This document shows, in pieces, positions 12,224 to 60,900 of a DNA stretch of 64,000 nucleotides. The position numbers and the translations under genes are program-made. Below the pieces are notes generated by a model that did not search any database, was not told the origin of the DNA, and saw only the letters and a program-made list of their open reading frames with translations. Source of the stretch: Nannochloropsis salina CCMP1776 (Eukaryota; Sar; Eustigmatophyceae; Eustigmatales; Monodopsidaceae); assembly GCA_004565275.1 (NCBI GenBank), contig SDOX01000015.1:37435-101434 (forward strand), in the 5' to 3' direction. Every line of letters begins with the position of its first letter. Position 1 is the stretch's first letter.

Positions 12224-13766
12224 ATGGCTACCTCGACTGAATTCATGGATACTGCTAACAATCATATTACTATGCCTTTGGTTGCTGCTCCGCATCAGCT
12301 TGCTGGGGCGATGGCGATTCACGAAGCAACGCGCAATAAAGACTTTGTCGCCTTAGACCGCCTTTTAAATGAAAACAAAAGCCTGATCCATGCCCCTGAC
12401 GTAGTAGGACGCTCACCTTTGATGATGAGTAGCTTACGGGGCCATGTAGATGTTTGTGAATGGCTTCTCGACCACGGAGCGCCATTGAATGCTGTAGACA
12501 TCAACAGACGCTCAGCTATGTATAACGCTGCCTCGTACGGGTTTGTGCAAGTCGTCAAATTGCTGATGGAGCGGGGTGCAGATCCTAAAATTGGAGACTG
12601 TGAAGGAAATGTACCTATAATTGCAGGTAAGAAAAGACAAATGCCAGTGCACTGGCCACGCGTCATTGCAAAATTGATTTGGAAAGTGCGTCACCAGCCC
12701 AAAAGCTTTTCACCAATATTATGTTTTTCTTTGGCATGACCCTCTTGATACTTCATGATACCAATTGCTATACCATATCCTTGATTTAGCTGCCTATTAT
12801 GGGTACGAGGACGTGGTACGCTACCTATTAGATTCCAAGCATGGGCAAGACCCTGACGACCTCGACCGGAAGGGCGAGCGACGGTGGACTGGACTCTACC
12901 TTTCTTGTGAGGCAGGCTACGTAAAAATCGCCCGAATGTTCCTTCAGGTAGGGGCAGACCCAACGATTGCCGACAATCACGGTTTCACGCCTCTGGAGGT
13001 TGCGCGAAAGATGAGCAACTGGCGGTGTGCTCGCCTTTTGGAACGGGCTCTGCGGGAGCCAGCGCGGGTAGCGTGTTTGGTCAAGGCCCATGCCCTTATG
13101 GAATCCAAGTACGTGATGAAAGAAGGTGTTAAGGCGATGGACGGAAGGAGGGGAGACAATATTTTTAGAATGAAGACCAGGATGACGCAAAAAAATAAGT
13201 ATTTGGAGGTGACTCCTCCTTTCTTACGCAGGAGAGTAGAGAATAAGCAGCCCTTACCCGTTGTAGATATTGGAGGTGTAAAGGTCATATCAAGTACTTT
13301 GCAGCTAGAAAAGAAAAGAAGGACTAAGAAGCGGGCTGGCTCCCTCCGCTCGACGAAACGAAGAAGGGGAGAGCTAAGAGAAGGAAAAATCGACCTTGGG
13401 AAAAAAATTCTGCTTCAAGAACAAGCAGCAAATCAAAGCAAGTGCAGTGATACTGGGTATGAAGGAAGACAGCCGATATTAATCCATGAAAGTAGGCAGA
13501 AGGTGGCGCGCTATCATACAGATGAAGAGCACTACGGAAGTGGAGCGGGCTTAGGGAGCAGGACCGATGCCATCTCCTCCATATTTTTGTCGTCGATATT
13601 TTTTCAGACATTACAAGATGGGAAAAATACAACGATAGGGGACGCTGAGAAAGAGGAAGAAGAAGATGAGGTGGTAGCTGTGACAAGATATCTGGTACAA
13701 GGAAGACTGCCTCGGGAGCTTTTCAATGAAGTAATTGAGATGATGACCCCCCGTTGGATGAGCTGA
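12224..13766 (+). CDS. Ankyrin-repeat protein
   Basis: Two exons, 12224-12626 and 12790-13766, join in phase after a one-base overhang. At least five ankyrin repeats are visible in the first 270 residues: GRSPLMMSSLRGHVDVCEWLL, NRRSAMYNAASYGFVQVVKLL, a repeat spanning the intron (YYGYEDVVRYLL), GLYLSCEAGYVKIARMFL and GFTPLEVARKMSNWRCARLL. The C-terminal half is basic and charged, without a domain I recognise, and ends in a hydrophobic stretch LPRELFNEVIEMM that looks like an amphipathic helix. Ankyrin arrays mediate protein binding, so a scaffold or adaptor role is likely, but no partner is suggested by context. Confidence 0.85.
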
Positions 13767-15611
13767 GTTGTAAAAGTGATTCTCATACAGACAGTGAGCG
13801 TTACTCATGATGAGTCCCCTTTCAAGATGCACAGAAGATAAAGCAAAAGCAGAACACAAGTAAAATAAGGGACAAAGTTGTAATGATTTTCGAGGTAATT
13901 GGATGTGAGACAGACAGTAAAGTCGCAAAATAAGTTACTCCTTCCAGCTGATCTGAAAGGCGAATGTAATGCCAAACGAATGATGAAAAACCAAAACTGA
14001 GCACTCCATAAAATTTTGAATGTAGTTTTCTTTTTCGTTGAGAGAGATGGTGAATTTATATGTCTTTGCGGTTCGCATGCCTTCCGGAGTAGATGTCCTA
14101 CAAATTCCATCTCCGTCCCTTTCCTCGCCCAAGAGAAAGAACGACACACACCTTTACGGGTTAAACCCTGCTTCTTAGTTGTTTGCATAGTCATGATGAA
14201 GATATTTTGTTTCCCCATGCTACCCTTTACTCGTCACATTATCCATACCGTCATTCGCCCTTCATCCGGACCGACTTCAGTCGCGGACCTCTCTCTGCTC
14301 TTTCAAATTCCTGATTGACGGGCTCATTAATGGTTTCATATTACTCTTGCACGAGACGCAATCAAGCTACCCATTTGCTCCTCTAATCGCTGCATCAGTA
14401 GTCGTTACTATGATTGCTTGTCATGAATTTATTCTTGTCCCGGTGAAAGTGTGGTGAAAGGTTGCTGTATTGTTTCCCTTCCGTTCCATATATTATGTCA
14501 TCTTCTAGGTTTTAAGAGGCATCTTCATTGCAGCACAATTATCTCTGCTCTCTTCACTCTTCCACTTTCTCTTTCTCAATCCTTTTAACCCATCGAGCCC
14601 CTTTTCTGATCCTCTTTTGTCTAGGTCTTCCCTCTGTCAAGTCCACATTCCAAAGGTTGAGACTTCTTTCAACATCAAACCAAACGACTTTAAATTCTTG
14701 CACCGCCTACATTCACGCCGCTGCAGTTCTTCTGCCACAACGACAGCGGATTACGCAAATCTACTATCTTATTTGTTTTGTCCCTCGTATAACCATCTGA
14801 TGCCTGGGTTGTTTCCGACCATCCAAACGCCCGACCCTGCTTGCAAAATTGATTAACGTCTTAAATCATCATATTTTACCCGTCTCCTGTCTTTTGAGCC
14901 TCCTTTCATATTCGTTTCATTTCCTCAGACCGATCCAGGAAATCGTAGTCTTTCAATAAAAGTAGACCGTGACCTTGATATCTTGTCTCACGTCCTTCCT
15001 CTTTGCTTCCGCCACCCGTCTCCACGCTCTTGCGGCTTTTCTAAAACCTAAGTCAGTTGACTGCATGTACACTTACATAGTCCGTTCGCTGGTACTATTC
15101 TTACGTTACTCGCTGTCAGGTAGAGATAGACAGATTCACTTTTCTTTCTTCGGTTCTTTTCCCGCCTTCCTTATCTCTCCTTTCCGCCTCGACCTCCTAA
15201 CAATGAAAAAGTTGGAGTGAGGAGACCTGTCCATCAAAATATTCAATGGGATTTATCATCCCCATGCACGCACAAAAGTCACTAGTTCGTCACAAGTCGA
15301 AAATCTTTGAAGCGTCTTACTCGAGCATAACTTCGAAGGCCTACCGCTCCCGCTTTTGGTTCATCTCCAGTCATGGATCACACCTTCCCCCCCTGCCGTC
15401 GTTGCGGGCTCTTGATGGTAGTATCAAACCCTTCATCGGAGACAATGCTTAGTGTGAGGACAGTCCTCGTCAAACATGCCTCTATGCTGTAAGCCGGTCC
15501 GTGAGGAGGCGCATCTGTGACACATTTCATTCCAATTTCCTCACAATTTTGTGTCTTTCCCTAACATTTTCGAATCCTTGTCGACCATCCTATCCTCGAG
15601 AAACCTCGACT
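13767..15611. other. Intergenic region
   Basis: About 1.8 kb of AT-richer sequence between two converging genes. Many short open frames occur on both strands, rich in Phe, Ser and Leu from T-rich DNA, but none has motifs or consistent splice sites. I see no RNA gene. Confidence 0.35.
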
Positions 15612-18600
15612 CTACAAAGGTCGCCAGGACGCTGGTAGCTGAATCCTGGGCGGGATTCCTCCACCGAACGGAGGCAAGTGCAGCGCGCTGCTCGGGCTAT
15701 TTCCGAGCACACCTGGAGCCAAGTTGGGGATCATGCAGAGATTATCATCAGAAATGTAAATTGAGAGGCATCAAAAGGAGGCGAGAGGCGTTTCTAGGGC
15801 CCATCTACGACAAAACACATGACGGCGAGGTCAAGAACGCAAGCAGGCAATTATACCTTGTTCCCCAGGTCGTGCCTGCAGCTGCTGTTGCGTATGTTGA
15901 TCTTGCTGCTGCATATGCGCGTGCTGTAGGAGCTGCTGTCGTTGTGATGGTTGCTGCTGTTGCTGCTGCTGCTGCTGGTGGTGGTGGTGCTGAGAACCGA
16001 CGGATAGATGGGACAGGGAGGGAGAAAGTCCCAGCCTCCGCGGGGGGGAAAGACCTGCAACGCGAAACGGACGCCCGGTTTGGAAGGTCAAGGGAGGGCA
16101 GTGAGCAAGTCGTCGTCCATGACTTCGAACGACACGCACAGAGAGACGACAGAAAGGGGGAGGTGGAAGGAGAAAGGCAGGAGGAGGCAGGTCGCGAACC
16201 TTCTAGAAAGCCCTTGTTCACGACCGCCCCGGTTGAAGTCCCGCTCATTGAGGACACGATGCTGCTACTGCTGCTACTGCTGGTGGTGGACGAGGACCTG
16301 CTGCCGTGGAAAGGTGAGGGAAACGACCGAGGATCAGAGGGAGGGCGCCGTATGCAAGCAAGCGTTAAGAGCGCTGCCCCCCAACCGGACCACTACCCCC
16401 TGCTCGACGCCCTTACCCGTTGAGCAGCCCCCTGCCCCCGATGCCTCCCAGTAAAAGACGACTCTGCTGCTGCTGCTGCTGCTGCTTTTGCTGGAGGTGC
16501 ATGGTGGCCAGGGAGGGAAGACTCCGATACCCTGCGCCTGGGCTGTTTGACTCGGTCGACGCCAGGCTCGTGGACGCACTCGTCGACCCTGTGCTCTCCA
16601 GGGACAGCCCCCGCTCCCGTCCTCTCTCCTTCCCGCTCGGCCCCCGTAGAAGCGGGAGGAAGGAGGACGAGGACGAGGTCGAGGAGTAGGAGGAGAGGAA
16701 GGTCGGAGTGGAGGGGGGGAGGAAGAGAGGAAGGGCCTTGGCACGGCTGGCGAGCAATGTAGCAAGGCGTTGTGTCTGTCCCGAGGGTCGGTCAAAAGGG
16801 TAAATGAAGTATGAGCATCATCTCGGAAGGACAGACCGGAGAAACGAGGTCTCTTCACACCAGAGAGTCCATTTTGCATATCACCCATCCGTTTACTCTA
16901 TATCCTCCTTCCCCTTCTCCTCAGCAGGTGTGCGCGCCATTACCTGGTTCTCACTCAAGGGACCGGCGCGACCGAGCGGGCTCGAAGCGGGGAGCGGGCC
17001 CAGAATAGATCGAACGTCCGGGTCGGATTCCGTGAGCGGGGGGGCTTCCAACAGGCACCGGATGCGGACCTGAGGCCGGGAGGGAGGTAGGTAGGTTAGA
17101 CGGGACGGCAACGTTGGATCGATTTTGAGAAGACGAGACATACAAAGAGAGGAGAGAGCCGTGGCACGGTCAAGAGAGAGGGAATGGAGGGGCCTCTACC
17201 TGCAAGGGGTACATGGTACTGGTGCTGGTTCGCTCCAAATTGTAGGCGACGGGGCAGGCGGCTTCGAAAATGCCGAAGAGAGTCCTGTCGGTGGCGTTGG
17301 CGAGAAAGAGGGTCGAGCCGGGGAGGACCACCTACAGGAACGAGGCAGCGGAGGGTAGAGAGTGAGATGCTGACCAGAGGATGCGGCGGCCCCCCCCCGC
17401 CCTGGCGTCGGCGCTTTTCATCCATCCCACAATGTCGCACCTCCTTCGCATAGGTCTCCAAGGCACCGCCCGCAGGCAAGGAGAAGAGCCCGCGGCCCAG
17501 ACACTCATCCAGAGTTTCCTGATAGCGGCGGAGCGGGCGCACAGAGAGGTGAGAAAAGCATGTGGCATCGCGTCCCCGCCCCCTCCCCCCTTTCCCGCCA
17601 GTACAGGCGGACATGAGAGAGATCCTCCCGCCTACTGCCACGTTTTGCCTTGACCTCTACGGGCCGCCTCGACGTACCTCGGTGCAAGGAAAGATGAAGC
17701 CTTGCCCCGAAATGACGGGGAAGGTCTGTCCGATCCCTTCCCCTCCCTCTCCCTGCTGAGGTCCCCCCCCTTCCCCTCCTCGCGGAAGAGGGTGCTGGTC
17801 TTGCTGAGCGCCTCCTCCTCCTCCATTCCCTCCTCCCCCGTCCAGCACCCCTCCTCCACCCCCTCCTCCTCCCCGACCTCCCCCAGAGGCCCCAAATGAG
17901 CCATAGGGTCCTCCTCCCCCACCGAAGCCACCGCCCTGGGAAGAAAAGCACAAGGTAAGTCAGGACGCTTAATGTAAGTTCACATGTCTTTCGATCGCGA
18001 GACGATCAAGAAGGCCAAAAGAGGCTCCGACGGAAAAACTGCGGTGGAGTGACGAAGATGGAATGAAGGGGCGAAGAGGAAAACGGAAAAGGGAGACTTA
18101 CAGGTAGACTGGCCTCAGCCCCCCCCAAGGCGAGAGAGACTTCGGAGGAAGAGTAAATGAGGTAGAGCAGCTGACGACCGATTTCAGGCGTCAATTCCTG
18201 GCAATCGCTGAAAGGAAGGAAGAGAGGGAGGGGGGGAAAGAAGGCAAGAAAGGTTTCAAGGGGAGGGACATCGTCTCACAAATAAAGCTGGTTGACCCTA
18301 ACGGAAAGGGGGGAGGAAAGTGGGCCCGTGCCGCTGTGGAATGCGTACCGAGAGCGGGAGATGGGTAGATTGTCGTTCAGGGGGTTGCGGAGAGGACGCG
18401 TGTGCGGGAACGGGAGGGACACGAGCCGGAGCCACTCCAATGAAAACTCCGCCGTCCATCCTGGCAGGAAGGAGGGAAGGAGGGAGGGAGGGAGGGAGGG
18501 ATAGAGGGCGTGAGGGGGGTATGCGTAATGGGTTTCAATTCGGACGAAAGGAGGGCGGGGAGGAAAAAAGAAGAAATGTGAGGGCGTACCGTCTTGATGG

Positions 18601-21556
18601 TGCTGGAGCATCTGGAGGGGCGGGAGGTGGGGAGGTTGTTGCTGGGACCGTATGGGGGAAGTCATGACCGCTGCCCCCTGCCAATGCCCCGACTCGTTCA
18701 CCGAGTAGAAGAGCACGACCTTGTCACAGGTGCGGAAGGCCTGGGGAGGGCGCACGGAGGGAGGGAAGAATACTCAGGAATCAGGGGCGGGCGACATAAG
18801 CCGGGAAAGACCGACATTTGCAGGGGGGGTTAGGAGGAGAGGAGGGGGGGAGGGAGGGAGGAAGGGAGGGTGGGAGGGAGGGAGGAAAGACAGCTCAAGA
18901 CTCACCTCGTTGAGGGTCCGCTCGTTGTTCCGGTGGGTGCGCCACACACCCCTGCGGACGGACTGGGCGAGGTTTTTATAGTTGAGCGATTTGATGACGA
19001 AGAATCGCACGCGGGCTTGATCCGGCCAGGGTAAACCCAAGTCGGGGAAGCGGATCTACGCGGGTAATGAGACGAGGCGGAAGGGAGATGGGGAGAAGAT
19101 GGGTGGGTATGGTCATCCAGGTCACCTCCCTTTGCCTCCCCGCCCGGCCGCCCTTGCCCTTCGCCCTGTCCCGTCCCTCCCCCCCTACCTCCTGCGGCGG
19201 CGGTATCATCGGGCCCGACACCACGCTCCCGCTGCCCGCCCCCAGGCTTATCCCACCACCGACTCCCCCCGGGCCTCCTCCGTTCACACCCGCGTACATG
19301 CCTGAGTGGCAACAAGTGGATGAAACGGTCAGTCCAGAGGAAGAAGAGGATCAGCTTGTGTACCACACCCACCCTTCATCTTCCTTCCCAACCCTCCTTC
19401 TCTCCCATCAGTCTCACCGCGCCCTCCCCCGGCCCTGTGCGCCTGCTGCTGCTCCCTTGCAATGGCAAGCGGGTGCTTCCGAAGCTCCGTCTCTCCGTGC
19501 GCAAACACACAGTCATCGCCAAACGGACAGAGGCCCTGAGAGGGAGGGGGGGAAGCAGGGAGAGCGTGAGAAAACCTCTGCACAAAGAAATTGTTTATTC
19601 CTCCCACGCCCCTTTATGCGTGCAAGTCACGAGCTACTCCGACAAATGTTCCCCTCTTTTGCCTCCCCCTTCCTTGCCAGACCTTGTTACTGAGCCAGTG
19701 GTTGCATAGCGTCGTCTTGTAATTCTCGTTCCGCTCAAGCGCCCCGCCTGGCCGCCGGTCCCTCCCCCCTTCCCGTCCTCCCTCCCGCCCTCCACCCATC
19801 CCCGTCCCAGAGGCCAACCCAAAGGGAGAGGCGGCCCCATTCTGGGGCTGCGATTGCTGCTGGTGCATCGACAAAAGCTGCAGCTGCTGTGGCACCACCA
19901 CCCCTGCTCGCCCTCCCCGCGCCCCTACCATCTCCCCCACTCTGCCCCCTCCGAAGCCACCCACCACATTGCCGGGGAGTCCTGGATGTCCCAAAGATGA
20001 TGTTCAGAGAAAAAAGATAAAAATGCGAAGCTTTGGCCTACATTTGTGCGACATGAACCCCCTCTGACACCTCCCAACTGTCCCTTCGGAAGACAGCACA
20101 CCGACAACGCAAGACGTGGAAAGTGTGAGGCTTTAAGGAGTATTTTGCGTACCTGATGACGCTCCAGGTGGATAGCTGTTGCCCTCTCCGCTCACATTCC
20201 CCCCCTCAGCCGCGGCGGCGGCGGCCTCGTCTGCCGCTTTTTGTGAGGATATATTGAACTCGCCTTGCTCGGGAGCGTCTTCTGGGTTGCGGTGGACATG
20301 CTTGTAGCTATATATAGGATGACAGGCCAGGGATGGAGGCACCAGGAGGGGAAAATAGTTCAGAAATGAGGAGAGGAAAGTGAGCCGGAGCTGGGTCGAG
20401 ACGGCTGGTAGTCGCCCGTGCTTTGGGACAGGCAAGAAATGACTGGAAGACAACAATTTTGACAAGTCTAAGGCATCGAAAGCCTGAAGTAGGGGTCCAT
20501 GAGACTGGGAAGAGGATGCTCGCGATGCGTCATGCGCCGAGGAGACAGGGCCTGCGGGGCTCGTGGGGATCCTCCCGACACGGGACTCAGGAAGCTGCCT
20601 TCCCTTACAGGCGTCCCATATCCATCCCTCCATACCACAGGATCGACATTCCTTTGCCTATTGAAACGATTCTCATGGCCAGGTATCCACTCCTCAGTTT
20701 CCTCTTATGTTCGATTCCTCCCTCCCCTCCCCCCTGCCTTCCTTCCTCTCCCCCCCCAGACAGCTTACCGGCAGAAAGGGCCGTACATGCAAAAACCCTG
20801 TCGATAAAAAACACATTCCGTCTTGTCCTCCTGCATCCATATAGGAAACCAAGGAGAAGGGTGCGTTGAACGGAATGAGAACAGGTCCAGAGATGCGTAT
20901 GGTGAATATTGCCGCTCTTTCACCCCTTTATGTGCCGCGCCCCCCTACCAGCCCGGGCTCCCACTGCACACTTCAACCTTCTTACAAGCGCATGCCCTTT
21001 AATTACTATTTTGATATTTCACATGCATTCAGCACGTTGACGGACTTATCCCCTCTGCGGTGGCCTACTGGGCAGTGAATCAATTCTACCCCTCTCCGAA
21101 GGGGAGGAGATTCCCTCGGCCAATCCCATTCTCCTCCCACGCTCCCGCCCACTCCATTTCCCTCACCTCTGTCACGTGCTTGAAAGGGCAGTCGTCGTCT
21201 CGTACACATTTACTTCCGAATCTATGGAGAAGGGGGATATAATCCGATGGGGTAAGAAACCACTATCACCCACATGGTACAACCCTTTTTTCCTCTAGTA
21301 CGTACGGGCAAATTGGCACACGGTCCAAGTCGTACTGGTGCAAGTATGGACAATCCTTGTCTAAGGCACACATGCCCACCAAATAATGGATGCACACGAC
21401 ATTTTTGCTCCCAGGCGCCATTGAACGCCCGCCCCCACGGCGTGGAACAAGGCCAGCATCCCCCCTCCCGTCCTGCCCGTCGCTGTTGCTGCTGGCTTCG
21501 ATCTCAAAGCTGAGGGCTGCCAGCTCGTCGTCCAGACTGCTCTCACCAGCTGCCAT
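15612..21556 (-). CDS. CPSF30-like CCCH zinc-finger protein fused to YTH and DCD domains
   Basis: Nineteen exons splice in one frame without a stop (sum 2,913 bases, 970 residues): 21306-21556, 21167-21221, 20769-20821, 20153-20307, 19683-19981, 19418-19535, 19189-19301, 18906-19055, 18590-18740, 18349-18460, 18102-18207, 17678-17935, 17441-17518, 17200-17331, 16944-17069, 16417-16775, 16200-16297, 15857-16054, 15612-15712. Three CPSF30-type CCCH fingers occupy residues about 55-122 (CIHYLVGMCALDKDCPYLH, CPFGSKCVRDDDCPFKH, CVFYRQGFCMYGPFCRYKH). A TIS11-like finger lies near 260-283 (YKTTLCNHW, CPFGDDCVFAH). The YTH domain spans about 349-521 (RFFVIKSLNYKNL, GVWRTHRNNERTLNE, VVLFYSVNESGHWQG, RDCQELTPEIGRQLL). 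A Gly-rich linker leads to a DCD domain about 598-720 (GFIFPCTEETLDECLGRGLF, RTLFGIFEA). The tail is Ser- and Gln-rich. CPSF30 acts in pre-mRNA 3' processing and the YTH domain reads m6A; the DCD role is unknown. Confidence 0.9.
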
Positions 21557-51490: not shown

Positions 51491-53382
51491 ATGCGGCCCC
51501 CACCGCACTTTATACCTGATACCCCACATCGACGGAGACGGTCTGCAGTTTTCACCTCAGTAGCATTATGCTTCATTGCTCCATTATTCTACATCGTCTG
51601 TCTCATATCGTACCACATGGAGGGCCAAGACGACGTCCTCAGGTTCTCTATTTCCAATCCCTTTGCTTCTCCGATACCAAAGAAAGAGAGCTTGATTATC
51701 AAAACTGCAATTTCGAAAGGCGGAATAGGAATCCCCCTTCTACAAAGCAAGGAGAACCATCGTACCTTCAGCACTATAATTCGGCATGCCCTCAAACCTT
51801 TAGTACCGGGTCTTATGATCGCTGCGTCCCTTGATGAAGAAAGTATGAGTGTACCTTCATCCCAAGGACGGGCACTAACAAGGATGCAGAGCTCGGAGAG
51901 CCCAATGCCAGGAAAGGGAGAAGAGAAACGTTCCTCTGACTACTTCAGGCGGCTTGTCTCGGCCCCGGGGGGAATCAAGCTACAAAGTATCTCTGACGCG
52001 CAATACGTTGGGATGGTAGGTCTTGGCACACCTCCTCAATACTTCCGCGTCCTGTTTGATACAGGATCAACGGATGTTTGGGTCCCCGCAGCGAATTGTC
52101 CGTCGTGCGGTCCGGGCCGGCGGGGATTTCATCCTGGGGCTTCTCGTACGTATCGGGACGTGCTGGAAAAGGATGACGATATGGAGGACGACGATGGAGT
52201 CCTGCCTCGGCTGTTCGAGGCGATGTATGCCGATGGCATTGTTGCGGGAAAGAAGGGCGAGGATACATTAAGAATTGGAGATGTTGCCATTGACGGCATA
52301 AAATTTGGTCAGGCAATCTATGAAGATGGAGAGCTTACATTAGCGTCCTGGGACGGTGTGGTGGGCCTAGGCCTCGGTAAAGCGGGGGAGATTAGCAAGC
52401 CGACGGTGCTGGAGGCGTTGCGGGAGCAGCATCCCGATCTGCCTTTCCATTTCTCTGTCTTCTTGGCAGCAGACGACCGGGGATTGGTCGAAGAATCATG
52501 CTCGGAGCTACGCTTGGGAGGCTACGACCTAGACAAGGTAGGGCAAAACGCTTCCTGGCACTTTGCTCCACTAGTTCTGGACGAAGAAGGGGGTGCAGGG
52601 AAGAGCTGGGGAGGGAACGGGGAAGAAGAGGAGTCGATAAGCATAATGAGACAAGGCAGGTGGTCCGTCGGCGTGAATGGCGTGGAGGTCCGTGCACGCA
52701 ACCACCAGCAGCCGGGCCGAGGCGAAATTTTGCGACTTGAAGAAATGAAGGAGCTGAACGAAGGCGGTACAAATGAAGCGGGATGGGGTCATGGCATCGC
52801 CATTCTAGACACAGGCGCCTCCCTCTTCATTCCTCCATCGACGGAATATCCCCGCCTACTTTCTCTCGTCACGCAGGGCCTTCACTGCACGGGGTCAAGT
52901 ACGTATAGCTCCACGAAAACGCCCTCGTCTGGGTGGCTTCCGACTTGCTACGGCGTTTCCGTCTCCGATTTTCCGGATTTGGTCGTTCGTTTCCAAGATG
53001 GGCCCTCCCTGCCCCTCCGCGCGGAAGACTATGTCTCGTGCTCCCTCAGCATCTGTATCCTGCTCCTACAAGACGTCGCTGACAATCCCTTTTGGGTCCT
53101 GGGCGAGGTTTGGCTCGAGGCCTACTACACGCTCTTTGACATTGCAAACCAAAGGCTTGGCTTTGCCTGCCCTCGGGAAGGTTGCGCAGGAGGGTCCTGG
53201 CATGGAGAACGGCATGCATATGGGCCGTTCGCCTGGGCGAAATTGGCGCCGTTCCTTGCGATCTTGCTGGGGATTGTGGGATGGCAGTGTTGGGGTCTCA
53301 TTTTTGAGGTGGTGGAATTCATCTTTCTCGAGGAAAGACGGGTAAGAAGCGTCGAAGGGAGGGAAGAAGAAGGGGTGGAAAG

Positions 53383-53413
<31 letters not shown>

Positions 53414-53989
53414 GAGGAGGAGGAGGAGGAGGAAGAGGAGGGGGAAGCCCCTGGATTTTTGTTCAATTTACTCAATAGGCATGACAGTCGGGGCACAGAG
53501 CATTTGGAAGAGGAATCTGAGGATGAGGAGGTTAGCTTTGCTATCCTTGATTCGAGAGCTGTTCACCGCGCGGTGTCGGCTTTAACGAGCGTGCCACAGC
53601 GAGGATTTCGGTGGATGTGGGGTGAGAGAGACTCGATGTGGACGTCCTCCTTTGTTCATAGATGGTGGCCTTCAGCAAGGCGGTCGTCGCAAGAGCGTCG
53701 GGGCCGGACCATGTCTCTGGTGACGTTTCAATCCGGTGCAGGCGGAGAGAACGGGGGCTCAAAGGACGAGGATGAGCTGCTCCGTCACGATAAAGAGGAA
53801 GATGTTATATTTAAGGGAATAATGGACAAAGGAGGAGGAAACAGATGTCATGGAGGCCAGCGGCATCGTGGGTGGTCGTTAGAAGGTCTCTATCCCCGCC
53901 CGCGGGGTCGGACGTCGAGCAACAGCCTTACTGTTATACCAGCTTCAGAGACTTTCAATGGAGAGGAGATAGGTATAGGTAGATCTTAA
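51491..53989 (+). CDS. Membrane-anchored pepsin-like aspartic protease (A1 family)
   Basis: A single-exon gene of 832 residues. A short basic N-terminus precedes a signal anchor (FTSVALCFIAPLFYIVCLI, residues about 20-40). After a linker, the catalytic domain opens with YVGMVGLGTPPQYFRVLFDT. The first active-site motif is FDTGSTDVW (about residue 188), the second LDTGASLFI (about 438), and FWVLGEVWLEAYYTLFDIAN marks the end of the fold. The spacing between the two aspartates, about 250 residues, exceeds the usual 180 because of acidic inserts. A second membrane helix (FLAILLGIVGWQCWGLIF, about 590-610) follows, then an uninterrupted Glu run and a long charged tail. Both ends are thus membrane-linked, with the protease in the lumen or outside. 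Substrate unknown. Confidence 0.9.
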
Positions 53990-57977: not shown

Positions 57978-60900
57978 ATGACACTGGGAGGCAACAATTC
58001 TACCCCTTTCCCGGACGGATATGATTGGGCGAAGCATTCTGCAAATCTTTCCAGGTTCTCATCAAGAGCGGAGTTTCTTCAACCTATTTGTATGATTGAT
58101 GAAAGTAGGAAGCGTACCGCGACTCCTGCAACGATGTCGATCAGCAGTGGGGCTATCAGTACGACGAGCATGCCTTGGACACCTTTATCCTCACCTTTAT
58201 CCTCATCACCCAACGCCTTGAACAAGACAAACACGATGCACTTATTCCCAGGCTCAAATGCATCGTTTTTGTCATCAAGCGCTATTCCTATTAAAGCATT
58301 CTCCTCCGGCGTCGATTGGGAGCAGCACGGCCCCGCCTTTAGTACTACACCGATGGGCTCGACAAGGCCCGCTTCAGAGCTAAATCTTCCCCCAACTTGT
58401 CACCAAAATATAAATCCCAAAACTATACGTACGACCGCAACTGCTTTAATACCTTTCCTCCTTCCCCGACTCACAAACTTTCTCAGCCTTGTGGAGGTGA
58501 ACATCTTCCTGCAAGTTTCCAAACGGCATCTCGCGGCTATGGCTTGCTCTGATGCAGTTCAAGGAATCGCTGTCCGTCATCCTCGAGATGGATGCACCAG
58601 CTCTCATTCCTATCAGTGGTTTCAAAACATAAGCAAAGTGACAGATGTCGAAAAAATTGAGGGAGGTGGACGTGATATGGATTCACTCACGATCGCTACA
58701 GGACAGTGGGAAATCCATGATCCAACAAGCGAGATCGAGACGGCACATCCCCTGCTTGCCCTCATTTCTCGTTACCAGAAAGGGCTAAGGTCTCTTCGAG
58801 TCGCTGATCTCAGGGTGTTTGCCCCTACACTTGTCGCCGCAGGGCAGGGTTTTCTATCTAATTTGACGCATTTGAGTCTCGCGTATGCAAACATTCAAGA
58901 CAAGGAGCTTACAGACTTTTCTATTCTTCTTGGACGTAATGATGGGCTTTTCCATGACGGAAATATCACTCAAGGAGCTTCCTCTTGGTCCACTTCCTCC
59001 TCCATCCTCTCGAGCCGCTGCCTTCCTTCTCTCCTCCCTTTCCTTGAGTATCTCACCCTAGCAGGAAACCGCTTCGGCGATCCAGGTGTTATGGCTTTTG
59101 CTGACCTTGCCTTAGGCCAGGGTGCATTACCGTGTCTTCAATCGCTTAATTTGGGCGCAAATGGATTCACCCCGTCGGGACGAGCCCTGGTAGCTCTGGC
59201 AAGGGCGTTCGGAAACAGACGAACGAGATACCAGGGGGGCAATGACACGAATGGGACAATGTGTCTTGGCTTGAAGAAGCTTGTGATGGGCACCTGGATG
59301 TGGGACCGTCTAGCGTCGCATGCTCGTCTCTCGTCCCTTGCCATCTCTCCCTCATCAATCACCACTGCCTACTATCAAAAGCCCCATCAGCCCCGCCTTC
59401 ACGAGCATCCTTTATACCACCTTTTCCTTTCCTTAGCTCCCACGTTGGAGGAGCTCGATCTCACGGACGTCTCTCTTCTGCCCAATGAAGTCGACGCGCT
59501 CGTGAATGCATGCCGGCGGGTCGCTCTCCCAGCTATACCCTCGTCCATCCCGCATGTGCCTCTACAAACTCTCTGTTTTTCATTAAGCTCTGGAAATCAG
59601 GACAACGTCGGAGAGATTTCTGGGAGTTGTAGGCCAGAGGACGGCCTTCGTGGCATGATATCCGCCTTTCAAGATGGTGTATTCCTTTCCGTGGAGAAAC
59701 TCGACCTCTCCAACGGCAATTTAAGCGGACCTTTTCCTTTGTCCCTCGTACAAGCCCTGCGGGGCGATGTTCTACCGTATCTTCAGCACCTGCGTCTCGC
59801 GCATATGGGACTGACGTCTCAAAGTTTATCGAGCCTCTTATGTGCCCTGCGCATGGACACGCCTCCTCGTCTATCTTCCCACTCGTCTCTGGTGGGCAAT
59901 GGGAATGCTCTTAAAGTCCTTTCTCTGGAAGGTAATGCCTTGCTGGGTCCAACTGGCGCAAGAATCCTGGCCACGTATGTGCAAGAAGGTCGTCTTGGCG
60001 GCTTACAAAGCTTGAATTTGAACGGTTCCAAATGTAGGTCTCGGCGTGGAAATTCACCGGTAGAAAGGATGCAGGCAGGGGGGAACTTCTCGTTGTCCGA
60101 TTCTATGTCATTTCCTTGCTTGTGCCAGCATTATTCTCTTTTACATTTCTTCTGCACGATATAGCCTAACACTGGTCATCTTGGCGTGTGTTTCAGTCGA
60201 CCTCCTTTTCTTTCACATCTTGACGCCAGTTTCGTCCAACCCTCTCTTGTCCTAGGCGCTGATAACGGTTTGCGGGAGCTCATCCAAGCCTTTGACGGCA
60301 GGGAAACATCGTTACCTTGCTTATTAGAACACTTACACATGGACGATTGCGATATAACCGCTCAAGGAGTCGCCTGTCTAGGGGGTAGCTTAAGGAATGG
60401 ACGCTTCCCTGAGCTCGAGACGCTCTCTCTGGCCCTAAATTCGGGCGTGAGGGAGGAAGGAGTGCGATGTCTGGTAACCGCATTGGAAGACATGGGCGGT
60501 GCCTGCAAGTTGAAGACGCTTGACTTATCTTGGACGAACATGACTGCAAGAAGTGCCGGTACGCATGGCAATGTGATCCCTGCTTTGACTTGCTTCGCTT
60601 TCTCCCCCCCTTCAACCTTCCCTTGGCTCCCTTTCCAACCAACGGGTTCCCCATAATGTGCTCTGTAGAGGATATGCAAGAAGCTTTGTCTAGTCACCCC
60701 CCTCCTCCCCCCCCCCCCCCCAACACGTCATACGTAGAACTCCTTGCGAAAGCCTTCCGACGGGGATGCGGTCGTAATTTGTCTTTGGTAAAGCTCGCGC
60801 AAGGAGGGCCTAGCAACATCCCTTGGTCCTTGGAGACCCGCCAGGCTTTCCACCACGTTCGGAACGTGGTGCTGGCGCGAACGAAAAGGGAGAACGAGTG

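Follow-up and report, generated by a model that had tools for sequence, protein, structure and literature searches.

A Nannochloropsis salina reading frame that joins CPSF30-type CCCH fingers, a YTH domain and a DCD domain

A locus on contig SDOX01000015.1 of Nannochloropsis salina CCMP1776 combines a putative mRNA 3′-end cutting subunit with two domains, each of a type that reads chemical marks on RNA. This architecture raises two questions: whether the CCCH fingers, the YTH domain and the DCD domain belong to one gene, and whether its product would read m6A. We addressed both within the window, the stretch of 64,000 nucleotides that was analysed as a whole. All positions below refer to the window, and all features of the gene lie on the minus strand.

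The exons were rebuilt from anchors in the window. The coding region (15612–21556) starts with an ATG at 21556 and closes with a TAG stop ending at 15612. It comprises 19 exons with a combined length of 2925 nt, corresponding to 974 codons plus the stop and a protein of 974 residues, in agreement with the first-pass annotation, which had described phase-matched exons and a total divisible by three. All 18 introns are GT-AG and range from 84 to 461 nt. Matching phase alone is little proof of the model, since the exons were chosen for it, and third-position G+C, which varies between 0.52 and 0.84 per exon, was not counted as proof of exons. Independent support for the joins comes from domain continuity: the YTH profile spans exons 8–11 and the DCD profile exons 12–15, and joining the exons lifts the DCD match from 30.3 bits (one genomic frame) to 57.3 bits. 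The two joins between the YTH and DCD parts (18102 to 17935 and 17678 to 17518) are both phase 0 and GT-AG and keep the frame open, as had been proposed. A Pfam search of the joined protein confirms one frame joining CCCH fingers, YTH and DCD.

Several other open frames occur in the window. On the plus strand, these include an 832-residue frame with an aspartyl protease domain (51491–53989; Pfam Asp, E = 4.9e-35), a 728-residue frame with leucine-rich repeats (57978–60164) and, past the 3′ end of the gene, a 333-residue frame with ankyrin repeats (12765–13766). No RNA families were found within the window.

In a motif scan of the joined protein, CCCH fingers begin at residues 55, 83, 108 and 267, four in all. 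Finger 1 (residues 55–73; 21338–21394), finger 2 (residues 83–99; 21176–21310, split by intron 1) and finger 3 (residues 108–126; 20298–20815, split by intron 3) match human CPSF4 chains (best E = 1.3e-21) and yeast Yth1 (E = 3.3e-14), forming an array related to the human CPSF4 fingers. Finger 4 (residues 267–287; 19497–19706, split by intron 5), which is absent from the first-pass annotation, is located between finger 3 and the YTH domain. It has the lead-in YKTTLC, its best Pfam matches are zf-CCCH and UNK-like CCCH, and it may resemble TTP-type fingers.

To place the gene in its genome, 26.5 Mb on 103 contigs were searched; these searches score the best candidates only and ignore introns, and absences hold at that sensitivity. 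The finger region gave seven matches at E ≤ 1, six of them in this gene and the seventh on contig C2 (E = 0.019). The zf-CCCH profile gave 18 matches, to which this gene contributes finger 4 alone; a search with that profile by itself would thus miss genes of this kind. The DCD domain matched this gene only. At the sensitivity used, there is a single CPSF30 orthologue, with no second CPSF30-like gene and no second DCD gene, and the present gene appears to be the organism's only CPSF30. YTH matches were obtained at two loci, this gene and a gene on contig C69 (L002, 1259–2376, plus strand) that belongs to the YTHDF type (YTHDF1, E = 1.1e-42). The genome also encodes one Fip1 homologue and two MT-A70 genes, homologues of m6A writers, both with DPPW. 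The second of these (L014, C15:676883–677506, minus strand) is METTL14-like in its EEY context and carries DPPW, while the METTL14 motif is EPPL; the catalytic motif is perhaps preserved in both homologues. Light-harvesting genes are numerous in the genome (34 matches). No relatives were confirmed when viral contigs were scanned for the YTH and DCD parts, or prokaryote genomes for the DCD part.

The YTH domain (residues 368–505; 18159–19007, exons 8–11) is readily recognized by its Pfam profile (E = 1.1e-41). Among solved structures, its closest match is Arabidopsis CPSF30 (5zuu, E = 3.4e-35), followed by YTHDC2 (E = 8e-26), a CCCH-type zinc finger protein (7ng2, E = 2.3e-22) and then by YTHDC1 and YTHDF chains. 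In human YTH domains, the cage around m6A consists of W, W and W/L/Y, and its first two tryptophans are called absolutely conserved in PMC6112328. We compared the present domain with those of Arabidopsis CPSF30, YTHDC2, YTHDF1 and the YTHDF-type protein of the same genome (five sequences in all). Cage positions 1 and 3 are tryptophans (W389 and W453), and position 2 is without an aromatic residue, such that the W-W-(W/L/Y) pattern is not present.

This difference maps to the loop before strand 5, most of which is encoded by the 3′ end of exon 9 (18590–18740). The third cage position precedes a phenylalanine by 4 residues in all five sequences. The second cage tryptophan, found 9 to 13 residues ahead of the same phenylalanine in each of the other four, is absent here. 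The loop itself is full length and, with 25 residues, the longest of the five compared. A missed exon as the source of the tryptophan was considered and rejected: from the codon that follows MTSPI (18650) to W453, the TGG of W453 itself is the sole TGG on the coding strand. No further TGG besides this codon occurs in the loop DNA after MTSPI through intron 9, and therefore no frame in that stretch yields another tryptophan. By an ungapped count from W389, using the YTHDC1 residue numbering given in PMC6112328, the position of N367 is an asparagine, while those of N363 and S378 are a leucine and an arginine, respectively.

In ECT2, replacement of all three cage tryptophans blocks RNA binding, according to the mutant data described in PMC11404569. 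For the present protein, we infer the effect of losing the second tryptophan alone: since this residue is missing, the YTH domain is expected to bind m6A weakly, in an altered way or not at all. Thus, m6A reading by this CPSF30 should not be assumed, and the earlier suggestion that the protein couples m6A reading to 3′-end processing is doubtful for a YTH domain that lacks the second cage tryptophan. The YTHDF-type paralogue on C69 keeps all three.

The DCD domain (residues 603–696; 17022–17701, exons 12–15; E = 1.8e-15) scores well above the curated cut-off of PF10539 (57.3 bits vs 27.8). The match covers profile positions 2–95 of 126, leaving the last 31 unmatched. The domain starts in exon 12 (17678–17935), which encodes a Gly-rich linker followed by the DCD start (GFIFPCTE) and contains no in-frame ATG. 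Searched against solved structures, the DCD domain gave one chance-level match only (E = 1.3), and an NCBIfam search returned nothing of use. Exons 16–19 (15612–16775), which are predicted from their splice sites and the absence of stops only, encode a low-complexity Ser/Gln-rich tail without any Pfam match, KH included. On the opposite strand of these exons runs a stop-free stretch of 300 codons (15521–16423, plus strand), whose 290-residue open frame has no Pfam match and is probably a side effect of repetitive sequence on the coding strand.

Pfam searches detected no KH domain over the full protein (E up to 1) or in the DCD part and the 252-residue tail (E up to 10, where filters drop most matches above 0.1). 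The rest of the gene's contig, C31, likewise contains none; the 30 KH_1 matches of the genome all lie on other contigs. In this protein, DCD thus comes after YTH in the same frame, with no KH detected alongside.

The first-pass annotation knew of no protein with all three domains, a statement overturned by the literature, since the same order has been published for heterokont CPSF30 (PMC7641849). In that paper, Bell et al. 2020 found DCD in many chromists, often fused to YTH, in proteins with an additional KH and an array of CCCH fingers, the CPSF30 orthologues of many heterokonts. It is the only paper among the matches listed in which CPSF30, YTH and "DCD domain" occur together. The present protein is a further member of this CPSF30-YTH-DCD group. 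In common with the heterokont CPSF30-YTH-DCD-KH proteins (e.g. of Saprolegnia diclina), which we compared by their description only, it holds CPSF30-type CCCH fingers, YTH and DCD in one chain. It differs from them, as they are described in PMC7641849, in the absence of KH, in an additional CCCH finger (finger 4, located after finger 3 and before YTH), and in its long Gly-rich and Ser/Gln-rich stretches.

Two further groups are related in part. Plant CPSF30-L and Toxoplasma CPSF4 also have three CPSF30 fingers followed by YTH; no DCD is described for them in the relevant passages of PMC7641849 and PMC8313237. The accounts in PMC8313237 and PMC6545605 have the Arabidopsis and Toxoplasma CPSF30-YTH proteins binding m6A and restraining read-through, whereas the present YTH is without the second cage tryptophan. 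Plant DCD proteins share the DCD domain (Pfam PF10539) and, in the summary of Bell et al. 2020, are known from development, the hypersensitive response and stress (PMC7641849). The view of DCD as a stress or development module, adopted at first pass, follows the name given to DCD in plants; in the published reading (PMC7641849), the domain is EVE/PUA-like and a likely binder of modified bases, being placed in the PUA-like superfamily with m5C suggested as the mark. To our knowledge, the plant DCD proteins stand apart from CPSF30.

We consider it probable (roughly 0.8) that the protein acts as a CPSF30 in which YTH and DCD steer the complex to suitable pre-mRNA, as a member of the heterokont group. 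The gene product would be the working CPSF30 (CPSF4) of the cell, with fingers 1–3 recognizing the poly(A) signal within the CPSF complex. YTH and DCD could then serve as two PUA-like modules on Gly-rich linkers that help to position the complex on, or keep it at, suitable pre-mRNA that is probably modified. The two modules may thereby bias CPSF30 to marked or otherwise suitable transcripts, in a manner comparable to plant CPSF30-L and Toxoplasma CPSF4 as these are portrayed in the papers cited above. The m6A step would be the weakest link, given the cage change. Because the YTH domain is expected to be impaired or altered in m6A binding, DCD may take a larger share of the reading. The finger matches to CPSF4 and Yth1, the proximity of the YTH domain to that of Arabidopsis CPSF30, the Fip1 and MT-A70 homologues, and the published heterokont CPSF30 with the same domain order speak for this explanation. 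The missing second cage tryptophan, the changes at the N363 and S378 positions, the absence of KH and a weak donor at intron 11 speak against it. Binding by the domains and an influence on 3′-end choice are inferred.

The locus might give rise to more than one product, a long YTH-DCD form and a shorter one made by intron retention or early polyadenylation. Such a pair has a precedent in CPSF30-S and CPSF30-L of Arabidopsis, in the account of PMC8313237; the same account reports Toxoplasma without two forms. Retention would bring in an in-frame stop for 14 of the 18 introns. Introns 7, 9, 13 and 17 are without one, and intron 9 (129 nt) would also preserve the reading frame when retained, so that isoforms are conceivable. 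The longest introns, 2 (336 nt) and 3 (461 nt), both fall among the finger exons, and poly(A)-like words are present in intron 2 (ATTAAA at 21003, TGTAA at 20986), intron 3 (TGTAA at 20609) and intron 5 (AATAAA at 19599). Retention of intron 11 would leave a CPSF30-YTH form without DCD. However, retained intron 3 introduces a stop inside finger 3, ahead of its histidine. The poly(A)-like words also carry little weight: AATAAA, ATTAAA and TGTAA are all absent from the 500 nt after the real stop, and such words were therefore dropped as evidence of a gene end, either way. A short form like Arabidopsis CPSF30-S is possible by analogy, and overall we regard the production of two forms as unlikely.

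Another alternative concerns the YTH domain, which may no longer read m6A at all, being either a relic or a binder of unmodified RNA, with DCD as the working reader of modified bases. Such a change has a parallel in the YTH domain of fission yeast Mmi1, which binds an unmodified RNA motif (as summarized in PMC6112328). It would fit a loop of full length in which cage position 2, held by tryptophan in all four other sequences and described as invariant in human YTH domains, is not aromatic, and a genome that has a separate YTHDF-type gene with an intact cage. However, the remainder of the domain is well conserved, including W389, W453 and the asparagine at the N367 position, and another residue of the loop might serve in place of the tryptophan. 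The argument is one from sequence, with four comparison sequences only. Nor is the cage alone decisive, as no m6A binding is seen for an archaeal protein of YTH-like fold whose cage reads W-F-F (again in the summary of PMC6112328). This alternative is, in our view, unlikely. Less likely still would be the fuller scenario in which the CPSF30-bound YTH has lost m6A reading, DCD has turned into a reader of a modified base (perhaps m5C) and finger 4 replaces KH as an RNA contact; if true, this would be a switch of mark within one 3′-end factor.

Between the YTH and DCD parts lies intron 11 (17936–18101, 166 nt), the sole YTH-DCD join, from YTH to exon 12, that is not pinned by domain continuity. 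Splice sites were ranked by a leave-one-out score over the gene's own GT and AG sites. The intron 11 donor is 33rd of 292 GT sites and the third weakest among the 18 introns, and the acceptor is 13th of 378 AG sites and the fifth strongest. Both lie inside the spread of the other introns of the gene, and the earlier description of the sites as good is fair, though not a strong one. The frame of exon 12 opens only at 17959, just after an in-frame stop. A CPSF30-YTH gene ending near 18006 beside a separate DCD gene would agree with the weak donor, with the TGTAA that overlaps it at 18102 (the only such word at intron 11, none being inside it) and with the 31 residues that reading through the intron adds before a stop, leaving YTH intact, but it is very improbable, because the exon encoding the DCD start lacks an in-frame ATG and is closely preceded by an in-frame stop, the single ATG of intron 11 (17985) is out of frame, a start at the in-frame ATG of intron 12 (17614) would omit the DCD start, and published heterokont proteins hold YTH and DCD in a single chain, as described in PMC7641849. 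The YTH and DCD parts almost certainly form one gene, presumably transcribed as a single mRNA.

Here, a compact genome encodes a CPSF30-YTH-DCD protein that is apparently its sole CPSF30. If the cage is truly broken, the protein would separate the need of CPSF30 for m6A reading from the question of what DCD reads, two questions that stay tied together in plants and Toxoplasma.
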